A program made the position numbers and the translations under genes. A stretch of DNA of 64,000 bases, taken from Siphonodentalium dalli. Lineage: Eukaryota; Mollusca; Scaphopoda; Gadilida; Siphonodentaliidae. Shown here in pieces: positions 7,397-60,557 of this stretch (position 1 is its first letter; the number at the start of each line of letters is the position of its first letter). Under the pieces are notes generated by a model that searched no databases, had not been told where the DNA came from, and saw only the letters and a list, made by a program, of their open reading frames with translations. The stretch covers positions 4,450,976 through 4,514,975 of the forward strand of contig CP136069.1 in assembly GCA_032622095.1 (NCBI GenBank). The letters run 5' to 3'.

Positions 7397-7448
7397 CACA
7401 TTATTAAAACTCACAACGGAAATAAATCGAGACATTATTAAAACTCAC
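7397..7448 (-). repeat. duplicated donor side of e14
   Basis: The first 16 or so intron bases after e14 (gtgagttttaataatg on the minus strand) occur again 34 bp downstream at 7397-7414. The second copy keeps gtgagt and is a potential decoy 5' splice site. Confidence 0.8.
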
Positions 7449-7721
7449 CATGGACGTCAAGCCATACATTAGCAGTGGTGTTCCCAGCAATGTTTGCTGC
7501 CACACAAGCGTACGGTCCTTCATGTTCTGCCTGTATGTTACGAATCGTAAGTTTACCATGGCCGTCCTTTATAATGTGCCTGTTTGACTGCAGAAGATGA
7601 TTATTTCTTGTCCAAACCACAGATGGCAACGGGTTCCCGTTTAAAACAATGCATTCTAATTCAATGCTGTCACCCTCTACTACTTCATTAAAAGGTTCTA
7701 TATACGCCAGCATCGGTCGAA
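7449..7721 (-). CDS. HMCN1: hemicentin exon e14: Ig6 (single exon)
   Basis: A complete I-set domain: VRPMLAYIEPFNEVVEGD, B-strand cysteine in LECIVLNGNPLP, tryptophan in VVWTRNNH, LTIRNIQAEHEGPYACVAAN and ending VWLDVH. The sequon NTT is present. The F-strand motif is EGPYAC in place of the usual DxGxYxC. Acceptor atcttgcag, donor CATG|gtgagttt, phase 1-1. Both borders have copies nearby: eight or so acceptor-plus-start units upstream at 7722-8117, and a second donor-like copy 34 bp into the downstream intron at 7397-7414. Confidence 0.9.
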
Positions 7722-8117
7722 CTGCAAGATAAATAAAATATCATAATATGTACGCCAGCATCGGTCGTACTGTAAGTTAAATAAAATATCATAATATGTA
7801 CGCCAGCATCGGTCGAACTGTAAGTTAAATAAAATATCATAATATGTACGCCAGCACCGGTCGTACTGTAAGATAAATAAAATATCATAATATGTACGCC
7901 AGCATCGGTCGTACTGCAAGATAAATAAAATATCATAATATGTACGCCAGCACCGGTCGTACTGTAAGATAAATAAAATATCATAATATGTACGCCAGCA
8001 TCGGTCGTACTGCAAGATAAATAAAATATCATAATATGTACGCCAGCACCGGTCGTACTGTAAGATAAATAAAATATCATAATATGTACGCCAGCATCGG
8101 TCGAACTGTAAGATAAA
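7722..8117 (-). repeat. 48-bp array built from the e14 acceptor and first codons
   Basis: About eight units of 48 bp start directly at the acceptor of e14. On the minus strand each reads ttatcttgcag or ttatcttacag followed by TACGACCGATGCTGGCGTA, while the true exon begins TTCGACCGATGCTGGCGTA. Each unit therefore carries a plausible 3' splice site and the first 18-19 exon bases. Confidence 0.93.
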
Positions 8118-8408
8118 TAAAATTGGTAAACGACAGTAAACTGTAGTTATATGCAATTTGAATTTTTCTAATATCTTTTTACTTATTCGTTTTTTTTTTT
8201 AAGAGGAGCGGCTTAGTTGCAATAACTTGTGTTTCAATCCTATTCAGACATTAGTGATGTGCGGCATATCAATTAATTGACAACGCCATGGTATGAAAAC
8301 CAACACCGTCTTACAACACCCACATTGATTTCTAAATGGTATATCGGCAGTTCAATAATATCACGACAATCAAACTAATGAAACATTCTCAAGGAAATGC
8401 TTTATCTA

Positions 8409-9093: not shown

Positions 9094-9276
9094 TTGAGAT
9101 ATGTAGATCACCGTTTGACTGCTGTCTGACTCTCCCACTCATTTCGACAGACAGCCCGTCATGTCTCTGCCAGTGAACTTTCGGCGGAGGAATACCTTCA
9201 CCCTGGCATTCTATCGTTGCCTCTGTCTCAATATCAGCAGCCACGCTCTGTGGATATTTAGTGATCCTAGGAGGGG
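9094..9276 (-). CDS. HMCN1: hemicentin exon e12: first half of Ig5
   Basis: This exon encodes SPPRITKYPQSVAADIETEA, the B-strand cysteine in TIECQGEGIPPPK, the tryptophan in VHWQRHDG, and ends GDLHIS. Acceptor agttttag variant (gttttag|CCCC), donor TCAA|gtaagtta, phase 1 in and out. It is 183 nt. The next intron (8730-9093, 364 nt) is the shortest in the window and holds an 88-bp repeat. Confidence 0.88.
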
Positions 9277-13490: not shown

Positions 13491-13546
13491 AATATTTCTG
13501 CTGAAAAAATCGTTTCAATGGGAATGAAAGAGAGTGCTTTAAAAAG

Positions 13547-13626
13547 TTATCTAAGTTGCCTCCAGACCACCTTGAGAGTTATCTATAAACTTACTTTGAT
13601 ATCACCTTTAGAGTTGTCTAACTTAC
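13547..13626 (-). repeat. degenerate duplications of the e10 donor side
   Basis: Two diverged copies of the e10 end plus donor follow the exon. On the minus strand the true site is GATCTCGAG|gtaagttag, the nearer copy GATATCAAA|gtaagttta and the farther one GGTCTGGAG|gcaacttag. The nearer copy keeps a usable 5' splice-site consensus. Confidence 0.75.
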
Positions 13627-13751
13627 CTCGAGATCACCTTTGAACCATTTCATCTTAGGAGCAGGTATTCCTGATGCTTTACAAAACAGTCTGGCCGTGT
13701 CTCCCGTAGCAACGAGAATCTTACTCTCAAACAAGTTGATTACTGGATGCT
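13627..13751 (-). CDS. HMCN1: hemicentin exon e10: first half of Ig4
   Basis: This exon encodes HPVINLFESKILVATGDTAR, the B-strand cysteine in LFCKASGIPAPK and the tryptophan in MKWFKGDLE. It is 125 nt with acceptor ttgatttacag and donor GAG|gtaagttag, phase 1 in and phase 0 out. Two degenerate copies of its end plus donor follow at once in the intron (13547-13616); the nearer one keeps an intact gtaagt. The intron upstream of it carries three unrelated minisatellites. Confidence 0.88.
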
Positions 13752-14799: not shown

Positions 14800-14849
14800 C
14801 AAGCCTTGAAATAGTGTGTCTGTCATTTGCAGAATGAGGTCCCCAGAGT
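14800..14849. mobile_element. family B MITE, broken at array start
   Basis: tgtctgtcatttgcagaatg followed by aggtccccagag, then a direct change into the 47-bp array. The array may have expanded inside or beside this element. Confidence 0.7.
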
Positions 14850-18171: not shown

Positions 18172-18414
18172 CAAGGTATTTAAGATTGAGAACTTTAGCG
18201 TCCTCTCCTGCTTCGTTGAGAGCGACACACTCGTATCGTCCAGCATCCCCTTGTCGAGCATCTGGGATGGTGAGGTACGGCTCGGTCGATAGAATCTTAC
18301 TGTTGTGTAACCAAAGGTATTCAGGATCTGGGAATCCTTGAGCCTCACATTCAATCTCCAGCGTCTCACCGGCAACGAAACTGATGTCCTCAAATGGGAG
18401 AACCAGCGGTCGTT
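18172..18414 (-). CDS. HMCN1: hemicentin exon e9: Ig3 (single exon)
   Basis: A complete I-set domain in one phase 1-1 exon: RPLVLPFEDISFVAGE, B-strand cysteine in LEIECEAQG, tryptophan in YLWLHNSK, and the F-strand motif DAGRYECVALNEAG, ending LNLKYL. The donor is CCTTG|gtaagcc and the acceptor ttattcacag. The upstream intron is the 19.5 kb satellite intron. Its 3' edge with donor occurs twice more in the downstream intron (near 17335-17390 and 18023-18053). The phase 1-1 design means this exon could be skipped or duplicated without frame change. Confidence 0.9.
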
Positions 18415-18680: not shown

Positions 18681-20223
18681 TGCAGAACTAACATCATGAT
18701 TCGTCAATCTGAAGGCAATTAGAGCTTACTCATCAGGGCTGCAACGATTCACCGATGTTTATCGGCGATATATGATATGCGGTTCGTTCCGTAATTATTT
18801 TGGTATGTTTTCTATCCACATTTTTATAGTCCAACGCATGCCCAAGCACTCTGAGAGGATACTGTTCATCGGCTGTAATCACAATAATTCCATAGTTTCA
18901 TGTTCTGTTAAAATGTTTTAATCAATTTCATGTTGGAACTATCAGACCATGATAAAATTGCAAGTTGTCAGGCGGTCGGAGGTTGGGCAACTAAAAAAAA
19001 ATTGTCATGCGGCCGGCGAAATGTAAATTGCATGTATGGAAACATATCGGTTTTCGTGCCTTTGAGAACGACGGTGTGTGGAATACTGACAATAGAAACA
19101 ATATGCTAAGTAGGCAAAAGTTTTAATCCGGTCAAATTTTCAGTCTGGAATGTATCGTGATACGTATCATATTGTTGCAAAAAATTGTGATACGTATCAA
19201 ATCGTGAGGTGGGTGTATTGTTGCAACCCTATTACTCATAAGATGACACTTGGCAGACAAACAAAAATGATGCACTAGTGAACTGCGGGTCGTTCTATTG
19301 ATGAAACATGATTTTTTTTTTAATTACATGTATGTTAGTTGAAACATGATTCATCAAACGTATGTAGAGGTTACTCAAGTGATAAATAAATAACACTGTT
19401 ATTGCTTTAGCAGCTAAATATTTTTGAATAAGTAATTTGAAATATAACGGCCATGATAACCTCATGATTTGTTAAATTGAAGCAATGTAGATTATAAAGT
19501 TGCTTATATATAAAGGTGAAACATATGCATATTGCATTTACTTTTGGCTGGAAAAATTAACCCTTTCATGACTGGAGCTCCATTTTTTTTGGAGAAAACC
19601 CTGTGCCAATGCATTCTCTAATATATGCGAGTCGACCAAAAATTTATAAAGAATGTAAGAAAAAATGAAAAAAAATGAAAAATTGTTAAAGAATGTAAGA
19701 AAAAATGATAAAATTGTTAAAGAATATAAGAAAAAATGTTAAAAATGTAAGAGAAAATGTAAGGTAAATATTCCAACAAATTTCTAGAATCTTAAAATTG
19801 GAGCTTGAAATTTCCAATTTTTGTGATTTATACCATCAAATTGCCCAGTTACTTTCTATGCTTTAAAGATGCGGGCGGTCTTCACGGTATTGCTGTTAAA
19901 ATAGTCACTGCCATAAACAGGAAGAATATTATATAACAGACAGATTTTAATCTTAAACCAATTATAAATATTGCGTACATTGCATGCTATTATCATGTTT
20001 GAATGCCTTGTTATGTAAACAAACATCAAAAATGTTACAGAACGATTTGTTTATAGACAAACACTTGGAACTACTGGATCGTCCACTGAAAATGTTCTGT
20101 TGTGCTGTTGAAGTCGAAGATCAAATTATTGTTGCTATCAATAATCACATTCAAATCATACCAAATTTTATTTTAATTGACCCATTCTACCCACTGTCAG
20201 TTCAAAAATCCAGCTAATCCACG
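18681..20223. other. intron, mostly unclassified
   Basis: No exon seen in 1.5 kb. A broken MITE starts at 19557 (ttaaccctttcatgactgga) and contains half of the shared hairpin, followed by degenerate 'gttaaagaatgtaagaaaaa' repeats to about 19765. Confidence 0.5.
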
Positions 20224-20622
20224 TTAACCCTTTACCCAACAAACCGGCCAAAACCGGCCAAATAAAGCTTCAACAGCCTAAAATATCTTCGGTCTGTCTC
20301 AATAGAACCATACAAATATGGATATCATTGGAACCGGCTCCTTGACCACATTGTGATAGTTACAGTTAGCCCTGTGCCAATGCATTCTCTTATATATGCG
20401 AGTCGACCATAGGTCGCCTCGCATATATAAGAGAATGCATTGGCCTAAAAAAAATCTTTTTTTAACACTTTTTACCATTTTTTCTTACATTCTTTAACAA
20501 TTTTATAATTTTTAATGTGTTAAGCCAATGCATTCTCTTATATATGCGAGGCGACCTATGGTCGACTCGCATATATAAGAGAATGCATTGGCACAGGGCC
20601 GTTCTGTTGGATAAAGGGTTAA
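20224..20622. mobile_element. family D MITE, long form
   Basis: TTAA plus CCCTTTACCCAACA at the left and TGTTGGATAAAGGG plus TTAA at the right. Two copies of the shared hairpin lie inside in opposite orientation. Related full copies are at 56292 and 61811. Confidence 0.87.
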
Positions 20623-21095
20623 TTCATGATTGCGAAATGATCAGACAGAAAACATGTACATGTACATAATATAATTGTTCTTGCAAAGAGATGAACATTT
20701 TCAATCCAATTAGTATTTTCTCCTAACCTATGGTAACTATGGTAATAACGTCACACACCAAATAAGGAATTTACAACATACATGTATGATAGTATTGTGA
20801 GTTGTAAGTTGTAGATGCACCAAATTAGGGGTTTTACAACCGACATAGAAAGCGCGCGATTCCAAATAAGGAAATGGTGCAAAATCATGACTCGGCTTAT
20901 AAACAATTCATTGTGCTTTTTTCGAGAAACTATACAACACTCGATCTGCATTTTCTCCAACACAAAGCACATGTATTGTGAATAATATCGATATCATTAT
21001 TATGCTATTACAATTAGTATAGTTTTGAGGAAATTATTATAAATTGATAAATGTTATTTTTAAGTTATAACCTACAACGAAAGCTACCTGTCCCT
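20623..21095. other. intron, no feature seen
   Basis: AT-rich sequence before the satellite. The short open frame at 20751-20972 (minus) resembles nothing I know. Confidence 0.45.
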
Positions 21096-24000
21096 TTAAT
21101 TTCACATCATATAGAGTATTTATTCCACTAACCATGGACTATAATTTCCCATCATATAGAGTATTTATTCCACTAACCATGGACTTTAATTTCACATCAT
21201 ATAGAGTATTTATTCCACTAACCATGGACTTTAATTTCACATCATATAGAGTATTTATTCCACTAACCATGGACTTTAATTTCCCATCATATAGAGTATT
21301 TATTCCACTAACCATGGACTTTAATTTCACATCATATAGAGTATTTATTCCACTAACCATGGACTTTAATTTCACATCATATAGAGTATTTATTCCACTA
21401 ACCATGGACTTTAATTTCACATCATATAGAGTATTTATTCCCTGGACCTTTAATTTCACATCATATAGAGTATTTATTCCCTGGACCTTTAATTTCACAT
21501 CATATAGAGTATTTATTCCACTAACCATGAACTTTAATTTCCCATCATATAGAGTATTTATTCCACTAACCATGGACTTTAATTTCACATCATATAGAGT
21601 ATTTATTCCACTAACCATGGACTTTAATTTCCCATCATATAGAGTATTTATTCCACTAACCATGGACTTTAATTTCACATCATATAGAGTATTTATTCCA
21701 CTAACCATGGACTTTAATTTCACATCATATAGAGTATTTATTCCCTGGACCTTTAATTTCACATCATATAGAGTATTTATTCCCTGGACCTTTAATTTCA
21801 CATCATATAGAGTATTTATTCCACTAACCATGAACTTTAATTTCCCATCATATAGAGTATTTATTCCACTAACCATGGACTTTAATTTCACATCATATAG
21901 AGTATTTATTCCACTAACCATGGACTTTAATTTCCCATCATATAGAGTATTTATTCCACTAACCATGGACTTTAATTTCACATCATATAGAGTATTTATT
22001 CCACTAACCATGGACTTTAATTTCACATCATATAGAGTATTTATTCCACTAACCATGGACTTTAATTTCACATCATATAGAGTATTTATTCCACTAACCA
22101 TGGACTTTAATTTCCCATCATATAGAGTATTTATTCCACTAACCAAGGACTTTAATTTCCCATCATATAGAGTATTTATTCCACTAACCATGGACTTTAA
22201 TTTCACATCATATAGAGTATTTATTCCCTGGACCTTTAATTTCCCATCATATAGAGTATTTATTCCACTAACCATGGACTTTAATTTCACATCATATAGA
22301 GTATTTATTCCACTAACCATGGACTTTAATTTCACATCATATAGAGTATTTATTCCACTAACCATGGACTTTAATTTCCCATCATATAGAGTATTTATTC
22401 CACTAACCATGGACTTTAATTTCACATCATATAGAGTATTTATTCCCTGGACCTTTAATTTCACATCATATAGAGTATTTATTCCACTAACCATGAACTT
22501 TAATTTCCCATAATATAGAATATTTATTCCACTAACCATGGACTTTAATTTCACATCATATAGAGTATTTATTCCACTAACCATGGACTTTAATTTCCCA
22601 TCATATAGAGTATTTATTCCACTAACCATGGACTTTAATTTCACATCATATAGAGTATTTATTCCACTAACCATGGACTTTAATTTCACATCATATAGAG
22701 TATTTATTCCCTGGACCTTTAATTTCACATCATATAGAGTATTTATTCCACTAACCATGGACTTTAATTTCCCATCATATAGAGTATTTATTCCACTAAC
22801 CAAGGACTTTAATTTCCCATCATATAGAGTATTTATTCCACTAACCATGGACTTTAATTTCACATCATATAGAGTATTTATTCCCTGGACCTTTAATTTC
22901 ACATCATATAGAGTATTTATTCCACTAACCATGGACTTTAATTTCACATCATATAGAGTATTTATTCCACTAACCATGGACTTTAATTTCCCATCATATA
23001 GAGTATTTATTCCACTAACCATGGACTTTAATTTCACATCATATAGAGTATTTATTCCACTAACCATGGACTTTAATTTCACATCATATAGAGTATTTAT
23101 TCCACTAACCATGGACTTTAATTTCACATCATATAGAGTATTTATTCCACTAACCATGGACTTTAATTTCACATCATATAGAGTATTTATTCCACTAACC
23201 ATGGACCTTTAATTTCACATCATATAGAGTATTTATTCCACTAACCATGGACCTTTAATTTCACATCATATAGAGTATTTATTCCACTAACCATGGACTT
23301 TTAACTTCACATCATATAGAGTATTTATTCCACTAACCATGGACTTTAATTTCACATCATATAGAGTATTTATTCCACTAACCATGGACTTTAATTTCAC
23401 AACCTTTAATTTCACATCATATAGAGTATTTATTCCACTAACCATGGACCTTTAATTTCACATCATATAGAGTATTTATTCCACTAACCATGGACTTTAA
23501 TTTCACATCATATAGAGTATTTATTCCACTAACCATGGACTTTAATTTCACATCATATAGAGTATTTATTCCACTAACCATGGACCTTTAATTTCACATC
23601 ATATAGAGTATTTATTCCACTAACCATGGACTTTTAACTTCACATCATATAGAGTATTTATTCCACTAACCATGGACCTTTAATTTCACATCATATAGAG
23701 TATTTATTCCACTAACCATGGACTTTAATTTCACATCATATAGAGTATTTATTCCACTAACCATGGACTTTTAGGAAGGCTCTTTAATTTCACATCATAT
23801 AGAGTATTTATTCCACTAACCATGGACTTTAATTTCACATCATATAGAGTATTTATTCCATTAACCATGGACTTTTAGGAAGGCTCTTTAATTTCACATC
23901 ATATAGAGTATTTATTCCACTAACCATGGACTTTAATTTCACATCATATAGAGTATTTATTCCACTAACCATGGACTTTTAGGAAGGCTCTTTAATTTCA

Positions 24001-27000
24001 CATCATATAGAGTATTTATTCCATTAACCATGGACTTTACTTTTACATCATATAGAGTATTTATTCCACTAACCATGGACTTTTAGGAAGGCTCTTTAAT
24101 TTCACATCATATAGAGTATTTATTCCACTAACCATGGACTTTAATTTTACATCATATAGAGTATTTATTCCACTAACCATGGACTTTTAGGAAGGCTCTT
24201 TAATTTCACATCATATAGAGTATTTATTCCACTAACCATGGACTTTAATTTCACATCATATAGAGTATTTATTCCATTAACCATGGACTTTTAGGAAGGC
24301 TCTTTAATTTCACATCATATAGAGTATTTATTCCACTAACCATGGACCTTTAATTTCACATCATATAGAGTATTTATTCCACTAACCATGGACTTTTAGG
24401 AAGGCTCTTTAATTTCACATCATATAGAGTATTTATTCCACTAACCATGGACTTTAATTTCACATCATATAGAGTATTTATTCCATTAACCATGGACTTT
24501 TAGGAAGGCTCTTTAATTTCACATCATATAGAGTATTTATTCCACTAACCATGGACTTTTAGGAAGGCTCTTTAATTTCACATCATATAGAGTATTTATT
24601 CCACTAACCATGGACCTTTAATTTCACATCATATAGAGTATTTATTCCATTAACCATGGACTTTTAGGAAGGCTCTTTAATTTCACATCATATAGAGTAT
24701 TTATTCCATTAACCATGGACTTTAATTTCTCATCATATAGAGTATTTATTCCACTAACCATGGACTTTTAGGAAGGCTCTTTAATTTCACATCATATAGA
24801 GTATTTATTCCACTAACCATGGACTTTAATTTCACATCATATAGAGTATTTATTCCATTAACCATGGACTTTTAGGAAGGCTCTTTAATTTCACATCATA
24901 TAGAGTATTTATTCCACTAACCATGGACTTTTAGGAAGGCTCTTTAATTTCACATCATATAGAGTATTTATTCCACTAACCATGGACTTTTCGGAAGGCT
25001 CTTTAATTTCACATCATATAGAGTATTTATTCCACTAACCATGGACTTTAATTTCACATCATATAGAGTATTTATTCCACTAACCATGGACTTTTAGGAA
25101 GGCTCTTTAATTTCACATCATATAGAGTATTTATTCCACTAACCATGGACTTTAATTTCACATCATATAGAGTATTTATTCCACTAACCATGGACTTTTA
25201 GGAAGGCTCTTTAATTTCACATCATATAGAGTATTTATTCCACTAACCATGGACTTTTAGGTAGGCTCTTTAATTTCACATCATATAGAGTATTTATTCC
25301 ATTAACCATGGACTTTAATTTCACATCATATAGAGTATTTATTCCACTAACCATGGACTTTTAGGAAGGCTCTTTAATTTCACATCATATAGAGTATTTA
25401 TTCCACTAACCATGGACCTTTAATTTCACATCATATAGAGTATTTATTCCATTAACCATGGACTTTAATTTCACATCATATAGAGTATTTATTCCACTAA
25501 CCATGGACTTTTAGGAAGGCTCTTTAATTTCACATCATATAGAGTATTTATTCCATTAACCATGGACTTTTAGGAAGGCTCTTTAATTTCACATCATATA
25601 GAGTATTTATTCCACTAACCATGGACTTTAATTTCACATCATATAGAGTATTTATTCCACTAACCATGGACTTTAATTTCACATCATATAGAGTATTTAT
25701 TCCACTAACCATGGACTTTAATTTCACATCATATAGAGTATTTATTCCACTAACCATGGACTTTAATTTCACATCATATAGAGTATTTATTCCATTAACC
25801 ATGGACTTCTAGGAAGGCTCTTTAATTTCACATCATATAGAGTATTTATTCCACTAACCATGGACTTTTAGGAAGGCTCTTTAATTTCACATCATATAGA
25901 GTATTTATTCCATTAACCATGGACTTTAATTTCACATCATATAGAGTATTTATTCCACTAACCATGGACTTTTAGGAAGGCTCTTTAATTTCACATCATA
26001 TAGAGTATTTATTCCACTAACCATGGCTCTTTAATTTCACATCATATAGAGTATTTATTCCACTAACCATGGACTTTTAGGAAGGCTCTTTAATTTCACA
26101 TCATATAGAGTATTTATTCCATTAACCATGGACTTTTAGGAAGGCTCTTTAATTTCACATCATATAGAGTATTTATTCCACTAACCATGGACTTTAATTT
26201 CACATCATATAGAGTATTTATTCCACTAACCATGGACTTTTAGGAAGGCTCTTTAATTTCACATCATATAGAGTATTTATTCCATTAACCATGGACTTTT
26301 AGGAAGGCTCTTTAATTTCACATCATATAGAGTATTTATTCCACTAACCATGGACTTTAATTTCACATCATATAGAGTATTTATTCCACTAACCATGGAC
26401 TTTTAGGAAGGCTCTTTAATTTCACATCATATAGAGTATTTATTCCACTAACCATGGACTTTAATTTCACATCATATAGAGTATTTATTCCATTAACCAT
26501 GGACTTTTAGGAAGGCTCTTTAATTTCACATCATATAGAGTATTTATTCCACTAACCATGGCTCTTTAATTTCACATCATATAGAGTATTTATTCCACTA
26601 ACCATGGACTTTTAGGAAGGCTCTTTAATTTCACATCATATAGAGTATTTATTCCACTAACCATGGACTTTAATTTCACATCATATAGAGTATTTATTCC
26701 ATTAACCATGGACTTTTAGGAAGGCTCTTTAATTTCACATCATATAGAGTATTTATTCCACTAACTATGGACTTTTAGGAAGGCTCTTTAATTTCACATC
26801 ATATAGAGTATTTATTCCACTAACCATGGACTTTAATTTCACATCATATAGAGTATTTATTCCACTAACCATGGACCTTTAATTTCACATCATATAGAGT
26901 ATTTATTCCACTAACCATGGACCTTTAATTTCACATCATATAGAGTATTTATTCCATTAACCATGGACTTTTAGGAAGGCTCTTTAATTTCACATCATAT

Positions 27001-30000
27001 AGAGTATTTATTCCACTAACCATGGACCTTTAATTTCACATCATATAGAGTATTTATTCCACTAACCATGGACTTTTAGGAAGGCTCTTTAATTTCACAT
27101 CATATAGAGTATTTATTCCACTAACCATGGACCTTTAATTTCACATCATATAGAGTATTTATTCCACTAACCATGGACCTTTAATTTCACATCATATAGA
27201 GTATTTATTCCACTAACCATGGACCTTTAATTTCACATCATATAGAGTATTTATTCCATTAACCATGGACTTTAATTTCACATCATATCGAGTATTTATT
27301 CCACTAACCATGGACTTTTAGGAAGGCTCTTTAATTTCACATCATATAGAGTATTTATTCCACTAACCATGGCTCTTTAATTTCACATCATATAGAGTAT
27401 TTATTCCACTAACCATGGACTTTAATTTCACATCATATAGAGTATTTATTCCACTAACCATGGACTTTTAGGAAGGCTCTTTAATTTCACATCATATAGA
27501 GTATTTATTCCACTAACCATGGACTTTAATTTCACATCATATAGAGTATTTATTCCATTAACCATGGACTTTTAGGAAGGCTCTTTAATTTCACATCATA
27601 TAGAGTATTTATTCCACTAACCATGGCTCTTTAATTTCACATCATATAGAGTATTTATTCCACTAACCATGGACTTTTAGGAAGGCTCTTTAATTTCACA
27701 TCATATAGAGTATTTATTCCACTAACCATGGACTTTAATTTCACATCATATAGAGTATTTATTCCATTAACCATGGACTTTTAGGAAGGCTCTTTAATTT
27801 CACATCATATAGAGTATTTATTCCACTAACCATGGACTTTTAGGAAGGCTCTTTAATTTCACATCATATAGAGTATTTATTCCACTAACCATGGACTTTT
27901 AGGAAGGCTCTTTAATTTCACATCATATAGAGTATTTATTCCACTAACCATGGACTTTAATTTCACATCATATAGAGTATTTATTCCACTAACCATGGAC
28001 CTTTAATTTCACATCATATAGAGTATTTATTCCACTAACCATGGACCTTTAATTTCACATCATATAGAGTATTTATTCCACTAACCATGGACTTTTCGGA
28101 AGGCTCTTTAATTTCACATCATATAGAGTATTTATTCCACTAACCATGGACTTTAATTTCACATCATATAGAGTATTTATTCCATTAACCATGGACTTTT
28201 AGGAAGGCTCTTTAATTTCACATCATATAGAGTATTTATTCCACTAACCATGGACTTTAATTTCACATCATATAGAGTATTTATTCCACTAACCATGGAC
28301 CTTTAATTTCACATCATATAGAGTATTTATTCCACTAACCATGGACCTTTAATTTCACATCATATAGAGTATTTATTCCATTAACCATGGACTTTTAGGA
28401 AGGCTCTTTAATTTCACATCATATAGAGTATTTATTCCACTAACCATGGACTTTTAGGAAGGCTCTTTAATTTCACATCATATAGAGTATTTATTCCACT
28501 AACCATGGACTTTAATTTCACATCATATAGAGTATTTATTCCACTAACCATGGACTTTTAGGAAGGCTCTTTAATTTCACATCATATAGAGTATTTATTC
28601 CACTAACCATGGACTTTTAGGAAGGCTCTTTAATTTCACATCATATAGAGTATTTATTCCACTAACCATGGCTCTTTAATTTCACATCATATAGAGTATT
28701 TATTCCACTAACCATGGACTTTTAGGAAGGCTCTTTAATTTCACATCATATAGAGTATTTATTCCACTAACCATGGACTTTAATTTCACATCATATAGAG
28801 TATTTATTCCATTAACCATGGACTTTTAGGAAGGCTCTTTAATTTCACATCATATAGAGTATTTATTCCACTAACCATGGACTTTTAGGAAGGCTCTTTA
28901 ATTTCACATCATATAGAGTATTTATTCCACTAACCATGGCTCTTTAATTTTACATCATATAGAGTATTTATTCCACTAACCATGGACTTTTAGGAAGGCT
29001 CTTTAATTTCACATCATATAGAGTATTTATTCCATTAACCATGGACTTTTAGGAAGGCTCTTTAATTTCACATCATATAGAGTATTTATTCCACTAACCA
29101 TGGACTTTAATTTCACATCATATAGAGTATTTATTCCATTAACCATGGACTTTAATTTCACATCATATCGAGTATTTATTCCACTAACCATGGACTTTTA
29201 GGAAGGCTCTTTAATTTCACATCATATAGAGTATTTATTCCACTAACCATGGCTCTTTAATTTCACATCATATAGAGTATTTATTCCACTAACCATGGAC
29301 TTTAATTTCACATCATATAGAGTATTTATTCCACTAACCATGGACTTTTAGGAAGGCTCTTTAATTTCACATCATATAGAGTATTTATTCCACTAACCAT
29401 GGACTTTAATTTCACATCATATAGAGTATTTATTCCATTAACCATGGACTTTTAGGAAGGCTCTTTAATTTCACATCATATAGAGTATTTATTCCACTAA
29501 CCATGGCTCTTTAATTTCACATCATATAGAGTATTTATTCCACTAACCATGGACTTTTAGGAAGGCTCTTTAATTTCACATCATATAGAGTATTTATTCC
29601 ACTAACCATGGACTTTAATTTCACATCATATAGAGTATTTATTCCATTAACCATGGACTTTTAGGAAGGCTCTTTAATTTCACATCATATAGAGTATTTA
29701 TTCCATTAACCATGGACTTTTAGGAAGGCTCTTTAATTTCACATCATATAGAGTATTTATTCCACTAACCATGGACTTTTAGGAAGGCTCTTTAATTTCA
29801 CATCATATAGAGTATTTATTCCACTAACCATGGCTCTTTAATTTTACATCATATAGAGTATTTATTCCACTAACCATGGACTTTTAGGAAGGCTCTTTAA
29901 TTTAACATCATATACAGTATTTATTCCACTAACCATGGACTTTAATTTCACATCATATAGAGTATTTATTCCACTAACCACGGACTTTTAGGAAGGCTCT

Positions 30001-33000
30001 TTAATTTCACATCATATAGAGTATTTATTCCACTAACCATGGACTTTAATTTCACATCATATAGAGTATTTATTCCATTAACCATGGACCTTTAATTTCA
30101 CATCATATAGAGTATTTATTCCACTAACCATGGACTTTTAGGAAGGCTCTTTAATTTCACATCATATAGAGTATTTATTCCACTAACCATGGACTTTAAT
30201 TTCACATCATATAGAGTATTTATTCCACTAACCATGGACTTTTAGGAAGGCTCTTTAATTTCACATCATATAGAGTATTTATTCCACTAACCATGGACCT
30301 TTAGGAAGGCTCTTTAATTTCACATCATATAGAGTATTTATTCCATTAACCATGGACTTTTAGGAAGGCTCTTTAATTTCACATCATATAGAGTATTTAT
30401 TCCACTAACCATGGACTTTAATTTAACATCATATACAGTATTTATTCCACTAACCATGGCTCTTTAATTTCACATCATATAGAGTATTTATTCCACTAAC
30501 CATGGACTTTTAGGAAGGCTCTTTAATTTCACATCATATAGAGTATTTATTCCACTAACCATGGACTTTAATTTCACATCATATAGAGTATTTATTCCAC
30601 TAACCATGGACTTTTAGGAAGGCTCTTTAATTTCACATCATATAGAGTATTTATTCCATTAACCATGGACCTTTAGGAAGGCTCTTTAATTTCACATCAT
30701 ATAGAGTATTTATTCCATTAACCATGGACTTTTAGGAAGGCTCTTTAATTTCACATCATATAGAGTATTTATTCCACTAACCATGGACTTTAATTTAACA
30801 TCATATACAGTATTTATTCGACTAACCATGGCTCTTTAATTTCACATCATATAGAGTATTTATTCCACTAACCATGGACTTTTAGGAAGGCTCTTTAATT
30901 TCACATCATATAGAGTATTTATTCCACTAACCATGGACTTTAATTTCACATCATATAGAGTATTTATTCCACTAACCATGGACTTTTAGGAAGGCTCTTT
31001 AATTTCACATCATATAGAGTATTTATTCCATTAACCATGGACTTTTAGGAAGGCTCTTTAATTTCACATCATATAGAGTATTTATTCCACTAACCATGGA
31101 CTTTTAGGAAGGCTCTTTAATTTCACATCATATAGAGTATTTATTCCACTAACCATGGACTTTAATTTCACATCATATAGAGTATTTATTCCACTAACCA
31201 TGGACCTTTAATTTCACATCATATAGAGTATTTATTCCACTAACCATGGACTTTTAGGTAGGCTCTTTAATTTCACATCATATAGAGTATTTATTCCACT
31301 AACCGTGGACTTCTAGGAAGGCTCTTTAATTTCACATCATATAGAGTATTTATTCCACTAACCATGGACTTTAATTTCACATCATATAGAGTATTTATTC
31401 CACTAACCATGGACTTTTAGGAAGGCTCTTTAATTTCACATCATATAGAGTATTTATTCCACTAACCATGGACTTTAATTTCACATCATATAGAGTATTT
31501 ATTCCATTAACCATGGACTTTTAGGAAGGCTCTTTAATTTCACATCATATAGAGTATTTATTCCACTAACCATGGACTTTAATTTCACATCATATAGAGT
31601 ATTTATTCCACTAACCGTGGACTTCTAGGAAGGCTCTTTAATTTCACATCATATAGAGTATTTATTCCACTAACCATGGACTTTAATTTCACATCATATA
31701 GAGTATTTATTCCATTAACCATGGACTTTTAGGAAGGCTCTTTAATTTTACATCATATAGAGTATTTATTCCACTAACCATGGACCTTTAATTTCACATC
31801 ATATAGAGTATTTATTCCACTAACCATGGACTTTTAGGAAGGCTCTTTAATTTCACATCATATAGAGTATTTATTCCATTAACCATGGACTTTTAGGAAG
31901 GCTCTTTAATTTCACATCATATAGAGTATTTATTCCACTAACCATGGACTTTAATTTCACATCATATAGAGTATTTATTCCACTAACCATGGACTTTTAG
32001 GAAGGCTCTTTAATTTCACATCATATAGAGTATTTATTCCACTAACCATGGACTTTTAGGAAGGCTCTTTAATTTCACATCATATAGAGTATTTATTCCA
32101 TTAACCATGGACTTTTAGGAAGGCTCTTTAATTTCACATCATATAGAGTATTTATTCCACTAACCATGGACTTTTAGGAAGGCTCTTTAATTTCACATCA
32201 TATAGAGTATTTATTCCACTAACCATGGACTTTAATTTCACATCATATAGAGTATTTATTCCATTAACCATGGACTTTTAGGAAGGCTCTTTAATTTTAC
32301 ATCATATAGAGTATTTATTCCACTAACCATGGACCTTTAATTTCACATCATATAGAGTATTTATTCCACTAACCATGGACTTTAATTTCACATCATATAG
32401 AGTATTTATTCCATTAACCATGGACTTTTAGGAAGGCTCTTTAATTTCACATCATATAGAGTATTTATTCCACTAACCATGGACTTTTAGGAAGGCTCTT
32501 TAATTTCACATCATATAGAGTATTTATTCCACTAACCATGGACTTTTAGGAAGGCTCTTTAATTTTACATCATATAGAGTATTTATTCCATTAACCATGG
32601 ACTTTTAGGAAGGCTCTTTAATTTCACATCATATAGAGTATTTATTCCACTAACCATGGACTTTTAGGAAGGCTCTTTAATTTCACATCATATAGAGTAT
32701 TTATTCCATTAACCATGGACTTTTAGGAAGGCTCTTTAATTTCACATCATATAGAGTATTTATTCCACTAATCATGGACTTTTAGGAAGGCTCTTTAATT
32801 TCACATCATATAGAGTATTTATTCCATTAACCGTGGACTTCTAGGAAGGCTCTTTAATTTCACATCATATAGAGTATTTATTCCACTAACCATGGACTTT
32901 TAGGAAGGCTCTTTAATTTCACATCATATAGAGTATTTATTCCACTAACCATGGACTTTAATTTCACATTATATAGAGTATTTATTCCACTAACCATGGA

Positions 33001-36000
33001 CTTTAATTTCACATCATATAGAGTATTTATTCCACTAACCATGGACTTTAATTTCACATCATATAGAGTATTTATTCCACTAACCATGGACTTTAATTTC
33101 ACATCATATAGAGTATTTATTCCATTAACCATGGACTTTAATTTCACATCATATAGAGTATTTATTCCACTAACCATGGACTTTAATTTCACATCATATA
33201 GAGTATTTATTCCACTAACCATGGACTTTAATTTCACATCATATAGAGTATTTATTCCACTAACCATGGACTTTAATTTCACATCATATAGAGTATTTAT
33301 TCCACTAACCATGGACTTTAATTTCACATCATATAGAGTATTTATTCCACTAACCATGGACTTTAATTTCACATCATATAGAGTATTTATTCCACTAACC
33401 ATGGACTTTAATTTCACATCATATAGAGTATTTATTCCATTAACCATGGACTTTTAGGAAGGCTCTTTAATTTCACATCATATAGAGTATTTATTCCATT
33501 AACCATGGACCTTTAGGAAGGCTCTTTAATTTCACATCATATAGAGTATTTATTCCACTAACCATGGACTTTAATTTCACATCATATAGAGTATTTATTC
33601 CACTAACCATGGACTTTAATTTAACATCATATACAGTATTTATTCCACTAACCATGGACTTTAATTTCACATCATATAGAGTATTTATTCCACTAACCAT
33701 GGACTTTAATTTCACATCATATAGAGTATTTATTCCACTAACCATGGACTTTAATTTCACATCATATAGAGTATTTATTCCACTAACCATGGACTTTAAT
33801 TTCACATCATATAGAGTATTTATTCCATTAACCATGGACTTTTAGGAAGGCTCTTTAATTTCACATCATATAGAGTATTTATTCCACTAACCATGGACTT
33901 TAATTTCACATTATATAGAGTATTTATTCCACTAACCATGGACTTTAATTTCACATCATATAGAGTATTTATTCCACTAACCATGGACTTTAATTTCACA
34001 TCATATAGAGTATTTATTCCACTAACCATGGACTTTAATTTCACATCATATAGAGTATTTATTCCATTAACCATGGACTTTAATTTCACATCATATAGAG
34101 TATTTATTCCACTAACCATGGACTTTAATTTCACATCATATAGAGTATTTATTCCACTAACCATGGACTTTAATTTCACATCATATAGAGTATTTATTCC
34201 ACTAACCATGGACTTTAATTTCACATCATATAGAGTATTTATTCCACTAACCATGGACTTTAATTTCACATCATATAGAGTATTTATTCCATTAACCATG
34301 GACTTTTAGGAAGGCTCTTTAATTTCACATCATATAGAGTATTTATTCCACTAACCATGGACTTTAATTTCACATCATATAGAGTATTTATTCCACTAAC
34401 CATGGACTTTAATTTCACATCATATAGAGTATTTATTCCATTAACCATGGACTTTTTGGAAGGCTCTTTAATTTCACATCATATAGAGTATTTATTCCAC
34501 TAACCATGGACTTTAATTTCACATCATATAGAGTATTTATTCCATTAACCATGGACTTTTAGGAAGGCTCTTTAATTTCACATCATATAGAGTATTTATT
34601 CCACTAACCATGGACTTTAATTTCACATCATATAGAGTATTTATTCCATTAACCATGGACTTTTTGGAAGGCTCTTTAATTTCACATCATATAGAGTATT
34701 TATTCCATTAACCATGGACTTTTAGGAAGGCTCTTTAATTTCACATCATATAGAGTATTTATTCCACTAACCATGGACTTTAATTTCACATCATATAGAG
34801 TATTTATTCCATTAACCATGGACTTTTAGGAAGGCTCTTTAATTTCACATCATATACAGTATTTATTCCATTAACCATGGACTTTTAGGAAGGCTCTTTA
34901 ATTTCACATCATATAGAGTATTTATTCCACTAACCATGGACTTTTAGGAAGGCTCTTTAATTTCACATCATATAGAGTATTTATTCCATTAACCATGGAC
35001 TTTTAGGAAGGCTCTTTAATTTCACATCATATAGAGTATTTATTCCACTAACCATGGACCTTTAATTTCACATCATATAGAGTATTTATTCCACTAACCA
35101 TGGACTTTAATTTCACATCATATAGAGTATTTATTCCACTAACCATGGACTTTAATTTCACATCATATAGAGTATTTATTCCACTAACCATGGACTTTTC
35201 GGAAGGCTCTTTAATTTCACATCATATAGAGTATTTATTCCACTAACCATGGACTTTTAGGAAGGCTCTTTAATTTCACATCATATAGAGTATTTATTCC
35301 ACTAACCATGGACTTTTAGGAAGGCTCTTTAATTTCACATCATATAGAGTATTTATTCCACTAACCATGGACTTTAATTTCACATCATATAGAGTATTTA
35401 TTCCACTAACCATGGATTTTTAGGAAGGCTCTTTAATTTCACATCATATAGAGTATTTATTCCACTAACCATGGACTTTAATTTCACATCATATAGAGTA
35501 TTTATTCCATTAACCATGGACTTTTAGGAAGGCTCTTTAATTTCACATCATATAGAGTATTTATTCCACTAACCATGGACTTTTAGGAAGGCTCTTTAAT
35601 TTCACATCATATAGAGTATTTATTCCACTAACCATGGACTTTAATTTCACATCATATAGAGTATTTATTCCACTAACCATGGACCTTTAATTTCACATCA
35701 TATAGAGTATTTATTCCACTAACCATGGACCTTTAATTTCACATCATATAGAGTATTTATTCCACTAACCATGGACTTTAATTTCACATCATATAGAGTA
35801 TTTATTCCACTAACCATGGACTTTAATTTCACATCATATAGAGTATTTATTCCATTAACCATGGACTTTAATTTCACATCATATAGAGTATTTATTCCAC
35901 TAACCATGGACTTTAATTTCACATCATATAGAGTATTTATTCCACTAACCATGGACTTTAATTTCACATCATATAGAGTATTTATTCCACTAACCATGGA

Positions 36001-37932
36001 CCTTTAATTTCACATCATATAGAGTATTTATTCCACTAACCATGGCTCTTTAATTTCACATCATATAGAGTATTTATTCCACTAACCATGGACTTTTAGG
36101 AAGGCTCTTTAATTTCACATCATATAGAGTATTTATTCCACTAACCATGGACTTTAATTTCACATCATATAGAGTATTTATTCCACTAACCATGGACCTT
36201 TAATTTCACATCATATAGAGTATTTATTCCACTAACCATGGACTTTAATTTCACATCATATAGAGTATTTATTCCACTAACCATGGACCTTTAATTTCAC
36301 ATCATATAGAGTATTTATTCCACTAACCATGGACCTTTAATTTCACATCATATAGAGTATTTATTCCACTAACCATGGACTTTAATTTCACATCATATAG
36401 AGTATTTATTCCACTAACCATGGACTTTAATTTCACATCATATAGAGTATTTATTCCATTAACCATGGACTTTAATTTCACATCATATAGAGTATTTATT
36501 CCACTAACCATGGACTTTAATTTCACATCATATAGAGTATTTATTCCACTAACCATGGACCTTTAATTTCACATCATATAGAGTATTTATTCCACTAACC
36601 ATGGACTTTAATTTCACATCATATAGAGTATTTATTCCATTAACCATGGACTTTTAGGAAGGCTCTTTAATTTCACATCATATAGAGTATTTATTCCACT
36701 AACCATGGACTTTAATTTCACATCATATAGAGTATTTATTCCATTAACCATGGACTTTTAGGAAGGCTCTTTAATTTCACATCATATAGAGTATTTATTC
36801 CACTAACCATGGACCTTTAATTTCACATCATATAGAGTATTTATTCCACTAACCATGGACTTTAATTTCACATCATATAGAGTATTTATTCCACTAACCA
36901 TGGACTTTAATTTCACATCATATAGAGTATTTATTCCACTAACCATGGACTTTTCGGAAGGCTCTTTAATTTCACATCATATAGAGTATTTATTCCACTA
37001 ACCATGGACTTTTAGGAAGGCTCTTTAATTTCACATCATATAGAGTATTTATTCCACTAACCATGGATTTTTAGGAAGGCTCTTTAATTTCACATCATAT
37101 AGAGTATTTATTCCACTAACCATGGACTTTAATTTCACATCATATAGAGTATTTATTCCACTAACCATGAACTTTTAGGAAGGCTCTTTAATTTCACATC
37201 ATATAGAGTATTTATTCCACTAACCATGGATTTTTAGGAAGGCTCTTTAATTTCACATCATATAGAGTATTTATTCCACTAACCATGGATTTTAATTTCA
37301 CATCATATAGAGTATTTATTCCATTAACCATGGATTTTTAGGAAGGCTCTTTAATTTCACATCATATAGAGTATTTATTCCACTAACCATGGACTTCTAG
37401 GAAGGCTCTTTAATTTCACATCATATAGAGTATTTATTCCATTAACCATGGACTTTAATTTCACATCATATAGAGTATTTATTCCACTAACCATGGACTT
37501 TAATTTCACATCATATAGAGTATTTAGTCCACTAACCATGGACTTTTAGGAAGGCTCTTTAATTTCACATCATATAGAGTATTTATTCCATTAACCATGG
37601 ACTTTTAGGAAGGCTCTTTAATTTCACATCATATAGAGTATTTATTCCACTAACCATGGACCTTTAATTTCACATCATATAGAGTATTTATTCCACTAAC
37701 CATGGACCTTTAATTTCACATCATATAGAGTATTTATTCCACTAACCGTGGACCTTTAGAGTATTTATTCCACTAACCATGGACCTTTAGAGTATTTATT
37801 CCACTAACCATGGACCTTTAGAGTATTTATTCCACTAACCGTGGACCTTTAGAGTATTTATTCCACTAACCATGGACCTTTAGAGTATTTATTCCACTAA
37901 CCATGGACCTTTAGAGTATTTATTCCACTAAC
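21096..37932 (-). repeat. 16.8 kb satellite built from the e8 donor junction
   Basis: A tandem array of 45-bp units and 59-bp units, plus 36-, 46- and 30-bp variants. On the minus strand the long unit is the last 24 nt of exon e8 (AAAGAGCCTTCCTAAAAGTC then CATG) followed by the first 35 nt of its intron (gttagtggaataaatactct then atatgatgtgaaatt). The 45-bp unit keeps only the last 10 exon bases. The array begins at the exon itself. From length I estimate 300-350 units, each with CATG|gttagt. Part 21.1-23.2 kb is almost purely 45-bp units; the rest mixes 45 and 59. Confidence 0.96.
37745..37932 (-). repeat. 30-bp truncated satellite units next to e8
   Basis: Six or so units of 30 bp (ctttagagtatttattccac then taaccatggac) lie between exon e8 and the long satellite. 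They lack the ttcacatcatat part. They may be an early or collapsed form. Confidence 0.9.
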
Positions 37933-38024
37933 CATGGACTTTTAGGAAGGCTCTTTCTTCTGATGATCCTCCTTCATTCGTCGCTCTGCATAGATAGTTA
38001 CCCTCATCATCGTCAGTGACACCC
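37933..38024 (-). CDS. HMCN1: hemicentin exon e8: second half of Ig2
   Basis: This 92-nt exon encodes GVTDDDEGNYLCRATNEGG to AFLKVH, holding the Ig2 F-strand motif DxGxYxC in the variant DDEGNYLC. The acceptor is tgatttcag. The donor is CATG|gttagtgg; reading past it gives GGT TAG, a stop, so inclusion of intron here would truncate the protein. The last 24 nt of the exon and the first 35 nt of the intron form the unit of the 16.8 kb satellite that follows immediately. The join to e9 (CAT-GAA, H-E) keeps frame, which supports this donor and not one of its downstream copies. Confidence 0.88.
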
Positions 38025-38601: not shown

Positions 38602-38782
38602 CTTACAACTAGTGTACCATTGTCAAATGTAGAAAACTTCTGATTTGAGGGAATCGGCAAGCCATCAGCAAACAGCCAGGTCACTTCGAAGCTAACGGCA
38701 CTCTGAGCCTGACAGGTAAGGAAGGCGGTCTGTCCAGGGGACACAGATACATTGGCTGGTGGTAATATGATCGGCGGGGGTT
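38602..38782 (-). CDS. HMCN1: hemicentin exon e7: first half of Ig2
   Basis: This exon encodes EPPPIILPPANVSVSPGQ, then the B-strand cysteine in AFLTCQAQSAV and the core tryptophan in VTWLFADG, ending DNGTLVV. Two sequons (NVS, NGT) are visible. It is 181 nt, acceptor cattttcag, donor AG|gtaagc, phase 1 in and phase 2 out. Its first 16 codons are the source of the 45-bp tandem array that starts just upstream in the intron (38816-39770). Several more copies of its acceptor and start lie at 39771-40205, so the true acceptor has upstream look-alikes. Confidence 0.88.
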
Positions 38783-38815: not shown

Positions 38816-39770
38816 GACAGTGCTCCGAGCTGAGGACACAGATACATTCGGTGGTGGTAATATGATGGATGGGGGAGGGGACACAGACACATTGGGTGGT
38901 GGTAATATGATGGATGGGGGAGGGGACACAGATACATTGGTTGGTGGTAATATGATGGATGGGGGAGGGGACACAGATACATTGGGTGGTGGTAATATAA
39001 TGGATGGGGGAGGGGACAGATACATTGGGTGGTGGTAATATGATGGATGGGGGAGGGGACACATATACATTGGGTGGTGGTAATATGATGGATGGGGGTG
39101 GGACAGACACATTGTGTGGTGGTAATATGATGGATGGGGGAGGGGACACAGATACAATGGTTGGTGGTAATATGATGGATGGGGGAGGGGACACAGATAC
39201 ATTGTGTGGTGGTAATATGATGGATGGGGGAGGGGACACAGATACATTGGTTGGTGGTAATATGATGGATGGGGGAGGGGACACAGACACATTCGGTGGT
39301 GGTAATATGATGGATGGGGGAGGGGACACAGACACATTCGGTGGTGGTAATATGATGGATTGGGGAGGGGACACAGATACATTGTGTGGTGGTAATATGA
39401 TGGATGGGGGAGGGGGACACAGATACATTGGTTGGTGGTAATATGATGGATGGGGGAGGGGACACAGACACATTCGGTGGTGGTAATATGATGGATGGGG
39501 GAGGGGACACAGACACATTGGGTGGTGGTAATATGATGGATGGGGGAGGGGACACAGACACATTGGGTGGTGGTAATATGATGGATGGGGGTGGGGACAC
39601 AGACACATTCGGTGGTGGTAATATGATGGATGGGGGTGGGGACACAGACACATTCAGTGGTGGTAATATGATGGATGGGGGTGGCGACACAGACACATTC
39701 GGTGGTGGTAGTATGATGGATGGGGAAGGGGACACAGACACATTGTCTGGTGGTAGTATGATGGGTGGGG
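38816..39770 (-). repeat. 45-bp array made from the first codons of e7
   Basis: About 21 units of 45 bp. In frame with e7 each unit reads PPPSIILPPPNVSVS or close variants; the exon itself opens PPPIILPPANVSVSP. All three minus-strand frames of the unit are open. Single-base gains and losses between units (for example near 39412) shift the frame, so the array as a whole is not in one frame with e7. Confidence 0.94.
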
Positions 39771-40205
39771 GCTCTGAAAATCTGAAAATGTAAACATGGA
39801 TATATGTTGAAGATGACGGAACTCTGAGTCTGACACAGATACATTGATTGGTTGGTGGTGGTGGACAGGGGCTCTGAAAAGATGACAGAACTCTGAGCCG
39901 GACAGACATATTGGTTGGGGGGGGGCTCTGAAAATGTAAACATGGATATATGTTGAAGATGATAGAACTCTGAGCCTGACACAGACACATTGGTTGGTTG
40001 GTGGTGGACGGGGGCTCTGAAAAGATTATAGAACTCTGAGCCTGACACAGATACATTGGTTGGTTGGTGGTGGACGGGGGCTCTGAAAATGTAAACATGG
40101 ATATATGTTGAAGATGACAGAACTCTGAGCCTGACACAGACACATTGGTTGGTTGGTGGTGGTGGTGGACGGGGACTCTGAAAATGTAAACATGGATATA
40201 TGTTG
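39771..40205 (-). repeat. repeat of e7 acceptor, exon pieces and upstream intron
   Basis: About five larger, irregular units. Each has an e7-like acceptor (cattttcag or cttttcag followed by AGCCCCC or similar), part of the first codons, and a fragment of inner exon (aactctgagcctgac, from the segment encoding AQSAV) plus the intron piece catggatatatgttgaagat. Confidence 0.88.
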
Positions 40206-40374
40206 AATATTTGTATGACCCACATATGTTAGTAAAGGGGGATGGCCAATGACACTTGAGTCCACGACAAGAGGTACCATGTCTTGCCCACCAGAAGCTG
40301 ACATAAGCTAATGACAGGCAGAGAACCCTGCTGTATAGGCAGTTTCAGAATCAATCAGAATTCGACCCATTATG

Positions 40375-58800: not shown

Positions 58801-59076
58801 GTACTGGAAACCCAAGCTTCATGCAGAGTTCAGTCCCCTACGCAGGACTTACTGCTGCCCACACCAACACGTAATGTGAAGAAATGTCACATTTATTTAT
58901 TTAAGACTTTTGTAGGTTACAATTCATTCTGCATTATTCTGCGAAAATTGAACTTTCCATTTTCATTTGAAAATTGTCCAGATCAAGCCAGAATGAATTG
59001 TAACTGACAAAACACTTCAATAAAAATGTTAGATTTCATCAGATTTAATTAAGAAAATACACATGCCGACAGCGGT

Positions 59077-59221
59077 CAGACATAGCATAGCGAGGGGACT
59101 GAACTCTGTTTTGCAGCTTGCTAGAAACTACCTGTTTGACTTGATCTTCAGACATACCGTAGCGAGGGGACTGAACTCTGTTTTGTAGCTTGCTCGAAAC
59201 CTACCTGTTTGACTTGATCTT
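59077..59221 (-). repeat. 72-bp duplication of e1 3' end and donor
   Basis: Copy at 59077-59147 and native at 59149-59221 share cagacat.. through ctacctgtttgacttgatct. On the minus strand both have GTCAAACAG|gta. The intron-side copy is thus a second 5' splice site with its own exon end. Confidence 0.92.
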
Positions 59222-59327: not shown

Positions 59328-59389
59328 CTGCAATGCAGAAAATTGGTGATATATTATATAGGTAACAATAGTTGCATGTATACACAAAC

Positions 59390-60245
59390 ACAACCAGTAA
59401 TGACAAAAAATACACTCAAATGTTAACACAAACACAACCTGTTATGACAAAAAACACACTCAAATGTTAACACAAACACAACCTGTTATGACAGAAAATA
59501 AAGTCACCTGTTAACACAAACATGACCTGTTATGACAGAAAACACAGTTGCCTGTTAACACAAAGAAAACCTGTTATGACAGAAAATACAGTTGCCTGTT
59601 ATCACAAACACACCGTTATGACAGAAAACACAGTTGCCTGTTAACACAAACACACTGTTATGACAGAAAACACAGTTGCCTGTTAACACAAACACACTGT
59701 TATGGCAGAAAACACAGTTGCCTGTTAACACAAACACACTGTTATGGCAGAAAACACAGTTGCCTGTTAACACAACATGTTATAACAGAAAACACAGTTG
59801 CCTGTTAACACAAACACACTGTTATGACAGAAAACACAGTTGCCTGTTGACACAAACACACTGTTATGGCAGAAAACACTGTTGCCTGTTAACACAACCT
59901 GTTATAACAGAAAACACAGTTGCCTGTTAACACAAACACACTGTTATGGCAGAAAACACAGTTGCCTGTTAACACAAACACACTGTTATGGCAGAAAACA
60001 CAGTTGCCTGTTAACACAAACACACTGTTATGGCAGAAAACACAGTTGCCTGTTAACACAAACACACTGTTATGGCAGAAAACACAGTTGCCTGTTAACA
60101 CAAACACACTGTTATGGCAGAAAACACAGTTGCCTGTTAACACAACCTGTTATAACAGAAAACACAGTTGCCTGTTAACACAAACACAACCTGTTATGAC
60201 AGAAAGCACAGGCATATGCTAACACAAACACAACCTGTTATGACA
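59390..60245 (-). repeat. 42-bp array made from the e1 acceptor and first codons
   Basis: About 20 units of 42 bp. On the minus strand a unit reads ttttctgtcataacag then GTTGTGTTTGTGTTAACAGG then CAACTGTG; the native junction is ttttctgcattgcag then GTTGTGTTTGTGTTAACGGG then CGACTGCG. In frame the unit gives VFVLTGNC, compared with VFVLTGDC in the exon. Confidence 0.93.
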
Positions 60246-60557
60246 GAAGATAGGTAATATATAATTTAGGTAACAATGGTCACCTGTATATATAGAAAAC
60301 ATGACCAGCTGTTAAATGACTTACACCATTTATTGGGCTCAGTTTATTTCATAATTCCATGTGTTATTAGTTAATTAGCGATATTAACACCTTCCGTTGT
60401 TATGATTGATAAAATTTTCAAAGTGTCTTTGCGATTGTGCTGTCACTTAAAAGTTCTAAGTCAAATTCATGAGCATGTAAATAGAACTATTTGAAAATAC
60501 ACCTGCACTAAAAGTCTTGTTGACACAGAAGCAACTACGAAAGAAATATCTCGATTG

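Follow-up and report, generated by a model that had tools for sequence, protein, structure and literature searches.

Minisatellites across exon-intron boundaries, known as mirages, have been described in the amphioxus genes Adh3, BflGb6 and BflGb9 (both globins), PGBD5 and troponin C, and by excerpts of the two reports they do not disturb splicing (PMC3087553, PMC3902484). A comparable human case is the IFI6 (6-16) gene, in which, by the title of its description, an intragenic minisatellite supplies several splice donors (Nucleic Acids Res 1995;23:1854). Here we describe arrays that resemble both, in a gene on the minus strand of a 64,000-nucleotide (nt) stretch from the scaphopod Siphonodentalium dalli (assembly GCA_032622095.1, contig CP136069.1, positions 4,450,976 to 4,514,975), hereafter the window. 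By its domain content, namely I-set domains and a GBD_Hemicentin match (E-value 5.4e-10) found with Pfam in the window exons, the host is a hemicentin gene. Like the amphioxus mirages, as excerpted (PMC3087553, PMC3902484), its arrays are tandem copies across exon-intron boundaries, at donors as well as acceptors, with many intact splice dinucleotides. The largest runs over 16.8 kb from 37932 to 21101 (minus strand), beginning at the donor of exon e8. We consider it likely that this array is a minisatellite of the mirage type, that it arose from the donor junction of e8, and that splicing tolerates it.

The e8 array and its origin

Exon e8 (37933..38024, minus strand, 92 nt) encodes the second half of immunoglobulin (Ig) domain 2 and ends in phase 1 as ...AAAGTCCATG|gttagt. 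It is open and in frame, and its reading joined to that of e7 runs ...NGTLVVRGVTDDDEGNYLCRATNEGGSSEERAFLKVH|G; e7 itself (38602..38782, minus strand) encodes the first half of the domain and was called from Pfam matches above cut-off (Ig_3 and I-set) together with splice sites. All units of the array lie downstream of the e8 donor, on the intron side. The following exon, e9 (18172..18414, minus strand; Pfam and splice-site calls), encodes a whole Ig domain and provides at 18414 the acceptor of an intron of about 19.5 kb, of which the array makes up about 86%.

The array, read from one assembly, contains 337 donor units, the authentic e8 donor included. The repeat unit crosses the exon-intron boundary: as a preliminary description of this DNA had proposed, and as the unit structure confirms, the 59-bp form joins the terminal 24 nt of e8 to 35 nt of intron, while the 45-bp form joins 10 nt to the same 35. 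Indeed, the 59-bp unit extends from an AAAG in e8 to just short of an AAAG in the intron, and the 45-bp unit is the same minus 14 nt that sit between two AAAG words. Spacings between units (n = 336) are mostly 45 bp (149) or 59 bp (125), followed by 46 bp (47), 39 bp (8), 31 bp (6) and 60 bp (1). The donor word reads GTTAGT in 265 units, GTTAAT in 63, GTCCAG in 8 and ATTAGT in 1; one of the first two is kept in 328 of the 337, the exceptions being the eight 39-bp units and the single ATTAGT. The exact word CATGGTTAGT (CATG|GTTAGT) occurs 257 times, always inside the array, with no occurrence elsewhere in the window on the gene strand and none on the opposite strand. The count first estimated, 300 to 350, was therefore too high for the exact word and is reached only with the 62 copies of CATG|GTTAAT added (319). 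That many copies follow genuine exon sequence is borne out, the exact 24-nt tail of e8 occurring 103 times (authentic counted) and being followed by GTTAGT in 59 of them.

The make-up of the array changes along its length. It does begin at the exon, as had been stated, but the intron motif there is only 20 nt long and is followed by six 31-bp units, each with GTTAGT and AATAAA, which form an exon-proximal sub-array (37747..37932, minus strand; donors at 37932, 37901, 37870, 37839, 37808, 37777 and 37746). The full 35-nt intron motif appears further into the array and at its distal edge. In the body 46-, 59- and 45-bp units are intermixed, and the last 47 units form a distal sub-array, delimited by unit spacing (21101..23199, minus strand), of 45- and 39-bp units only, the eight of 39 bp being without GTTAGT. 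A clear higher-order repeat was rejected, as no period is prominent across the whole array. There are 47 distinct sequences among the 336 unit intervals and the longest exact internal repeat measures 601 bp, which suggests recent homogenisation. So long an exact repeat would also fit an array length produced by the assembly, with a mis-assembled real repeat much shorter or longer, and a mis-assembled mirage in an older draft is noted in an excerpt of PMC3087553. We hold this to be very improbable: the 47 distinct units are arranged irregularly and include sub-regions that are ordered (units of 31 bp next to e8, of 45 and 39 bp at the far end), and other junctions of the gene carry arrays of their own.

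Where the repeat came from was addressed with a single intron-side 31-mer, searched at up to three mismatches in the whole 2.23-Gb genome. It matched 323 times, against 323 in the window alone, and the roughly 100 listed places all lie within the window; with this one probe and threshold, neither a dispersed satellite with the unit at other loci nor an identical satellite elsewhere without e8 was found. The exonic part of the repeat, in turn, encodes a normal Ig domain end resembling that of neighbouring exons. Taken together, the confinement of the matches and the Ig domain end support the earlier proposal that e8 is the source, and the satellite appears, by this probe, private to the intron. 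The reverse course, in which the satellite arrived from elsewhere and e8 received its end sequence from it, is scarcely credible given the same two observations.

The preliminary description had treated e8 as singular, a claim that a survey of the gene does not bear out. For this survey 200 kb downstream were added, and further Ig exons were found with a profile built from the hemicentin gene, of which e8 was one seed; junction copies were called with BLAST (at least 28 nt, 80% identity and at least 10 nt on each side) within 25 kb. Both kinds of boundary carry junction-spanning copies, 12 of 41 donors and 9 of 41 acceptors, or 21 of the 82 junctions tested (this count includes the acceptor -72966, a decoy copy, in place of -73006; negative window positions lie downstream of the window on the gene strand), and the idea that the e8 array is unique in kind was rejected. 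Still, e8 ranks first with 315 detected copies, the next being a 62-bp array of 65 copies at -73089. In near windows, where -73006 was used, 11 of 41 donors and 7 of 41 acceptors (18 of 82) have copies, compared with 0 of 20 donors and 0 of 22 acceptors (0 of 42) at 25 other Ig loci (Fisher p 3.3e-4), which were taken from 150 listed matches and are not 25 separate genes, ten coming from one stretch of contig C4 (34.9-35.5 Mb), and among which five had a 250-nt flank only, 8 of 50 borders were uncallable and some called borders may sit inside longer exons. Exon borders outside the window rest on our own scores, and three (near -92197, -100034 and -101831) are doubtful.

A possible history follows from the unit structure. 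A tandem duplication would have come first, of the 59 bp delimited by one AAAG word lying 24 nt short of the e8 end and another lying 35 nt into the intron; loss of 14 nt between AAAG words would then have produced the 45-bp form, and further loss the 31-bp form. Repeated unequal exchange could then have expanded and homogenised the intron side, with selection preserving e8. We infer the order of these duplications and deletions from the units themselves. Because the region is dense in minisatellites, the same process would have acted at many junctions of the gene, e8 being the extreme.

Splice-site choice and the polyadenylation motif

Donors were scored with a general matrix of approximate values and with one derived from the gene itself, over 37 called donors, and acceptors with a simple home-made measure, pyrimidine-based and blunt. 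The e8 donor, which like its copies fits the donor consensus, is an ordinary one within the gene: it scores 2.94 by the general matrix, in the lower third of the 37, and is mid-range by the gene-derived one, with 20 of 36 others equal or higher. Among the 878 AG of the array the best acceptor scores 0.6, whereas the e8 acceptor scores 2.9, and 36 of the 37 called acceptors stand above the array best (two acceptors were wrong in this scoring, one belonging to the exon at 5506 and one near -39079; the former was right in both copy counts, the latter in the 18 of 82 count but not in the 21 of 82 count). It is because the copies carry no good acceptor that splicing is expected to tolerate the array. 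With poor acceptors, decoys would hardly be recognised as separate exons; only the e8 acceptor would pair across an exon, with a near donor, and e8's own acceptor thus probably defines the exon. This exon-definition account, which we infer from the splice-site scores, would favour donors near the e8 acceptor.

Several observations weigh against the main reading. By the general matrix, 256 other GT of the array (out of 1239) score at least as high as the e8 donor, so that local sequence is unable to tell the first donor from the rest. The acceptor measure places 13 of the 37 called acceptors below 2.5 and one (0.3) below the array best. Nine GTTAGT donors, the authentic one counted, lie within 400 nt of the e8 acceptor; exon definition alone therefore fails to single out the first, and the first few are real competitors. 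Competition among strong donors that are all occupied usually favours the intron-proximal one, which would speak against use of the first. Finally, across the gene, junctions are copied less often than random intron points (21 of 82 against 781 of 1500, points in the e8 array included). How the first site is chosen among hundreds, which had been left open, is less open than it was, the array being poor in acceptor-like sequence and published mirages being reported to splice normally, and narrows to a choice among the first few donors.

The consequence of a wrong choice can be read from the frame. As had been noted, reading through from e8 past its donor meets a stop at once (GGT TAG, ...LKVHG-stop, e8 ending in phase 1), and the claim that decoy use would truncate hemicentin after Ig2 is supported by the reading frame. 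Since all decoys give GGT TAG, any of them would add this same stop and end the protein after Ig2, and the product would probably be removed by decay. If decoys were used appreciably, the resulting truncated or decayed transcripts could act as a brake on hemicentin output, scaled by array length. In line with this, the 9-nt donor matches the authentic one exactly in 243 of the 315 decoys aligned, decoy GTs have not been purged (314 of 315 intact at e8 and 98 of 98 in the 11 other donor arrays), and the human IFI6 minisatellite, by its title, provides multiple splice donor sites. Published mirages, by contrast, are reported in excerpt to lack splicing disturbance (PMC3087553, PMC3902484), and the decoys are weakened by changes at the +5 G, which counted by copies is the most altered donor position (63 of 337 units are GTTAAT at e8, and 25 of 98 decoys are altered elsewhere); with the arrays as units of counting, -3 and -1 are each variable in 6 of the 12 and +5 in 4 (the donor of exon 47584-47366, one base off, was excluded from the comparison matrix, 40 of 41 being used). 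We regard such a brake as unlikely, though not far-fetched.

The fate of the copies adds to this picture. Acceptor copies retain AG in 53 of 57 cases, and with the donor copies outside e8 all intact, the destruction of decoys at GT or AG was rejected. Compared with their authentic donor, 72 of the e8 decoys are weaker, 243 equal and none stronger, and the 98 decoys at other donors divide into 35 weaker, 61 equal and 2 stronger. When retention was ranked over 33 offsets, GT came out best and AG fourth by mean per array, lower when pooled; with AG only fourth, we make no claim of selection keeping the dinucleotides. Given the shared ancestry of the copies and the weakening effect of most donor changes, these counts prove no selection.

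A second motif accompanies the donor. AATAAA begins 8 nt after the donor start in 336 of the 337 units, and GTTA(A/G)TGGAATAAA occurs 326 times; the gene strand of the window outside the array has 53 AATAAA in 47.1 kb, and in the e8 read-through the TAG stop sits 3 nt ahead of AATAAA. As U1 is known, from an excerpted source, to protect intronic polyadenylation (poly(A)) signals (PMC5499120), the array could be a series of U1-guarded poly(A) signals, low U1 leading to intronic cleavage and to a short hemicentin that ends ...LKVHG after Ig2. The motif counts, the background outside the array and the position of the stop speak for such signals. However, a single founding sequence accounts for all copies, so the pairing of donor and AATAAA may be one coincidence, and the second largest donor array has 3 AATAAA in 5.9 kb, for which reason the pairing was rejected as a general feature. 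U1-guarded signals are thus an improbable explanation of the array. A shade more doubtful is a tunable switch of about 326 pairs of U1 site and AATAAA behind the stop. In it, ample U1 would let transcription pass through the intron, which is then removed by splicing, whereas with little U1 transcripts would end within the array and yield a short vWA-GBD-Ig1-Ig2 protein for secretion, array length determining how often.

Other arrays and repeats of the region

Copies were also found at 8 of 196 exon-interior points. As random intron points were copied more often than junctions, nothing indicates a junction-aimed process; duplication targeting junctions was rejected, and junctions are dragged along. 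The hemicentin gene nevertheless retains recognisable Ig exons despite copies at so many of its splice sites. Within the window (all on the minus strand), a 48-bp array crosses the acceptor of the Ig exon 7721-7449 (7699..8123; 8 copies, AG intact in 8 of 8), and a 42-bp array that of an exon whose weak vWA match stays under the Pfam cut-off (59370..60248; 17 copies, AG intact in 16). The junction-copy test further returned a two-copy 72-bp duplication at the donor of the weak-vWA exon (59076..59221), a 32-bp imperfect repeat across the donor of the half-Ig exon 13751-13627 (13545..13641) and a 34-bp imperfect duplication at the donor of the Ig exon ending at 7449 (7398..7471). Upstream of e7, arrays at 38834..40207 have units that by eye resemble the acceptor side and start of e7, with one acceptor-spanning copy of 35 nt.

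The second large donor array lies downstream of the window at about 4377886 of contig C9 (-73089), with 62-bp units extending over 5.9 kb. Its donor reads AAAG|GTTAGT, and +5 is altered in 23 of its 65 copies. The two largest donor arrays have the only two GTTAGT donors among the 41, a post hoc observation that carries no weight. The e9 donor junction is copied 138 nt downstream (18171 to about 18033, minus strand); the phase-1 frame is free of stops up to the copy (stop at +149), so that splicing from the copied donor could lengthen the protein in frame by 46 residues, and the gap between donor and copy contains sequence present elsewhere in the window. A second half-Ig exon (11073-10929, minus strand) joins the one already named in the interval from e9 to the Ig exon at 9276. 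On the opposite strand, 48377-48484 (plus strand) matches the second half of an Ig domain (E-value 2.8e-8) and is perhaps a displaced exon copy.

In like-sized pieces, tandem repeats cover 23% of the hemicentin region, with the e8 array excluded, against 2.8% of the other Ig loci. They cover 6.3% of 24.8 kb at eight loci (L001-L008) picked via a repeat element that adjoins the distal edge of the e8 array (19862..21100, no strand assigned). This element, scored at no fewer than 39 genome places and split by other sequence, has inverted termini and TTAA ends and is piggyBac-like by eye. Away from the gene the samples are small, four 1-kb pieces per set: cover reached 36% near C9 4.15-4.7 Mb, coming from two pieces, 26% on four other contigs, each sampled 4.4 Mb from its start, nearly all from one piece, and 3.7% in the C9 interior. 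Given the high cover compared with other loci, the repeat excess seems to belong to this part of the chromosome, which lies 4.25-4.51 Mb into the 215-Mb contig. The window also contains two blocks of 12/21-bp repeats (120-925 and 1415-2232) that closely resemble each other, at a distance of about 1.3 kb, and, away from called exons, an intronic 47-bp array of 43 copies (14846-16864) whose gene-strand unit carries GTTAGTAAGG. Elsewhere in the assembly, I-set exon pairs with identical scores occupy opposite strands at distances of a few hundred kb (C6 49.08/48.75, C6 228.77/228.32 and C4 264.50/265.24 Mb), being either inverted duplications or duplicated haplotypes. A search for the molluscan haemocyanin family gave no match, the controls included, and so carries no weight; one for the hemerythrin family also gave none, matching only prokaryote controls.

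Comparison with described systems

The e8 array offers a natural test of splice-site choice, one in which candidates differ in how far they lie from the acceptor, in donor strength and in position. Its 256 other GT as high-scoring as the authentic one share as much as 24 nt of the exon context and have no good acceptor among them, and smaller series stand at other donors of the same gene (65, 15, 4, 4, 3 and 2 copies, plus five single copies). To our knowledge, the choice among identical splice sites has mostly been studied with few engineered copies. The IFI6 minisatellite, for its part, reportedly has about 26 units of 12 nt, with the first few donors used.

In the literature searched, no paper joining hemicentin with a minisatellite was found, nor, by titles and the starts of abstracts in a search that mostly excluded subscription papers, an array of such size. 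Human internal tandem repeats, according to an excerpt of their description, resemble the present case as repeats at exon-intron boundaries that alter gene structure, with the difference that they lead to new introns or exon changes while at e8 an existing intron has been lengthened (PMC2812944). As for the amphioxus mirages, those of the globins and Adh3 have, in the excerpted reports, transcript support for normal splicing, whereas for the e8 array normal splicing is a prediction. BflGb6 is described there with 6 and 3 units in two haplotypes, in contrast to 337 units over 16.8 kb at one donor. The hemicentin gene also goes beyond them in having 21 of 82 tested junctions affected in one gene and an AATAAA in nearly every unit of the e8 array. 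Thus, the kind is known; apparently new, in that we have met no description of them, are the size of the e8 array, how many junctions are affected within a single gene, and a unit that pairs a donor with AATAAA. The e8 array is thereby the extreme case of a known oddity, the mirage, and the RNA made from it would carry hundreds of look-alike splice sites.

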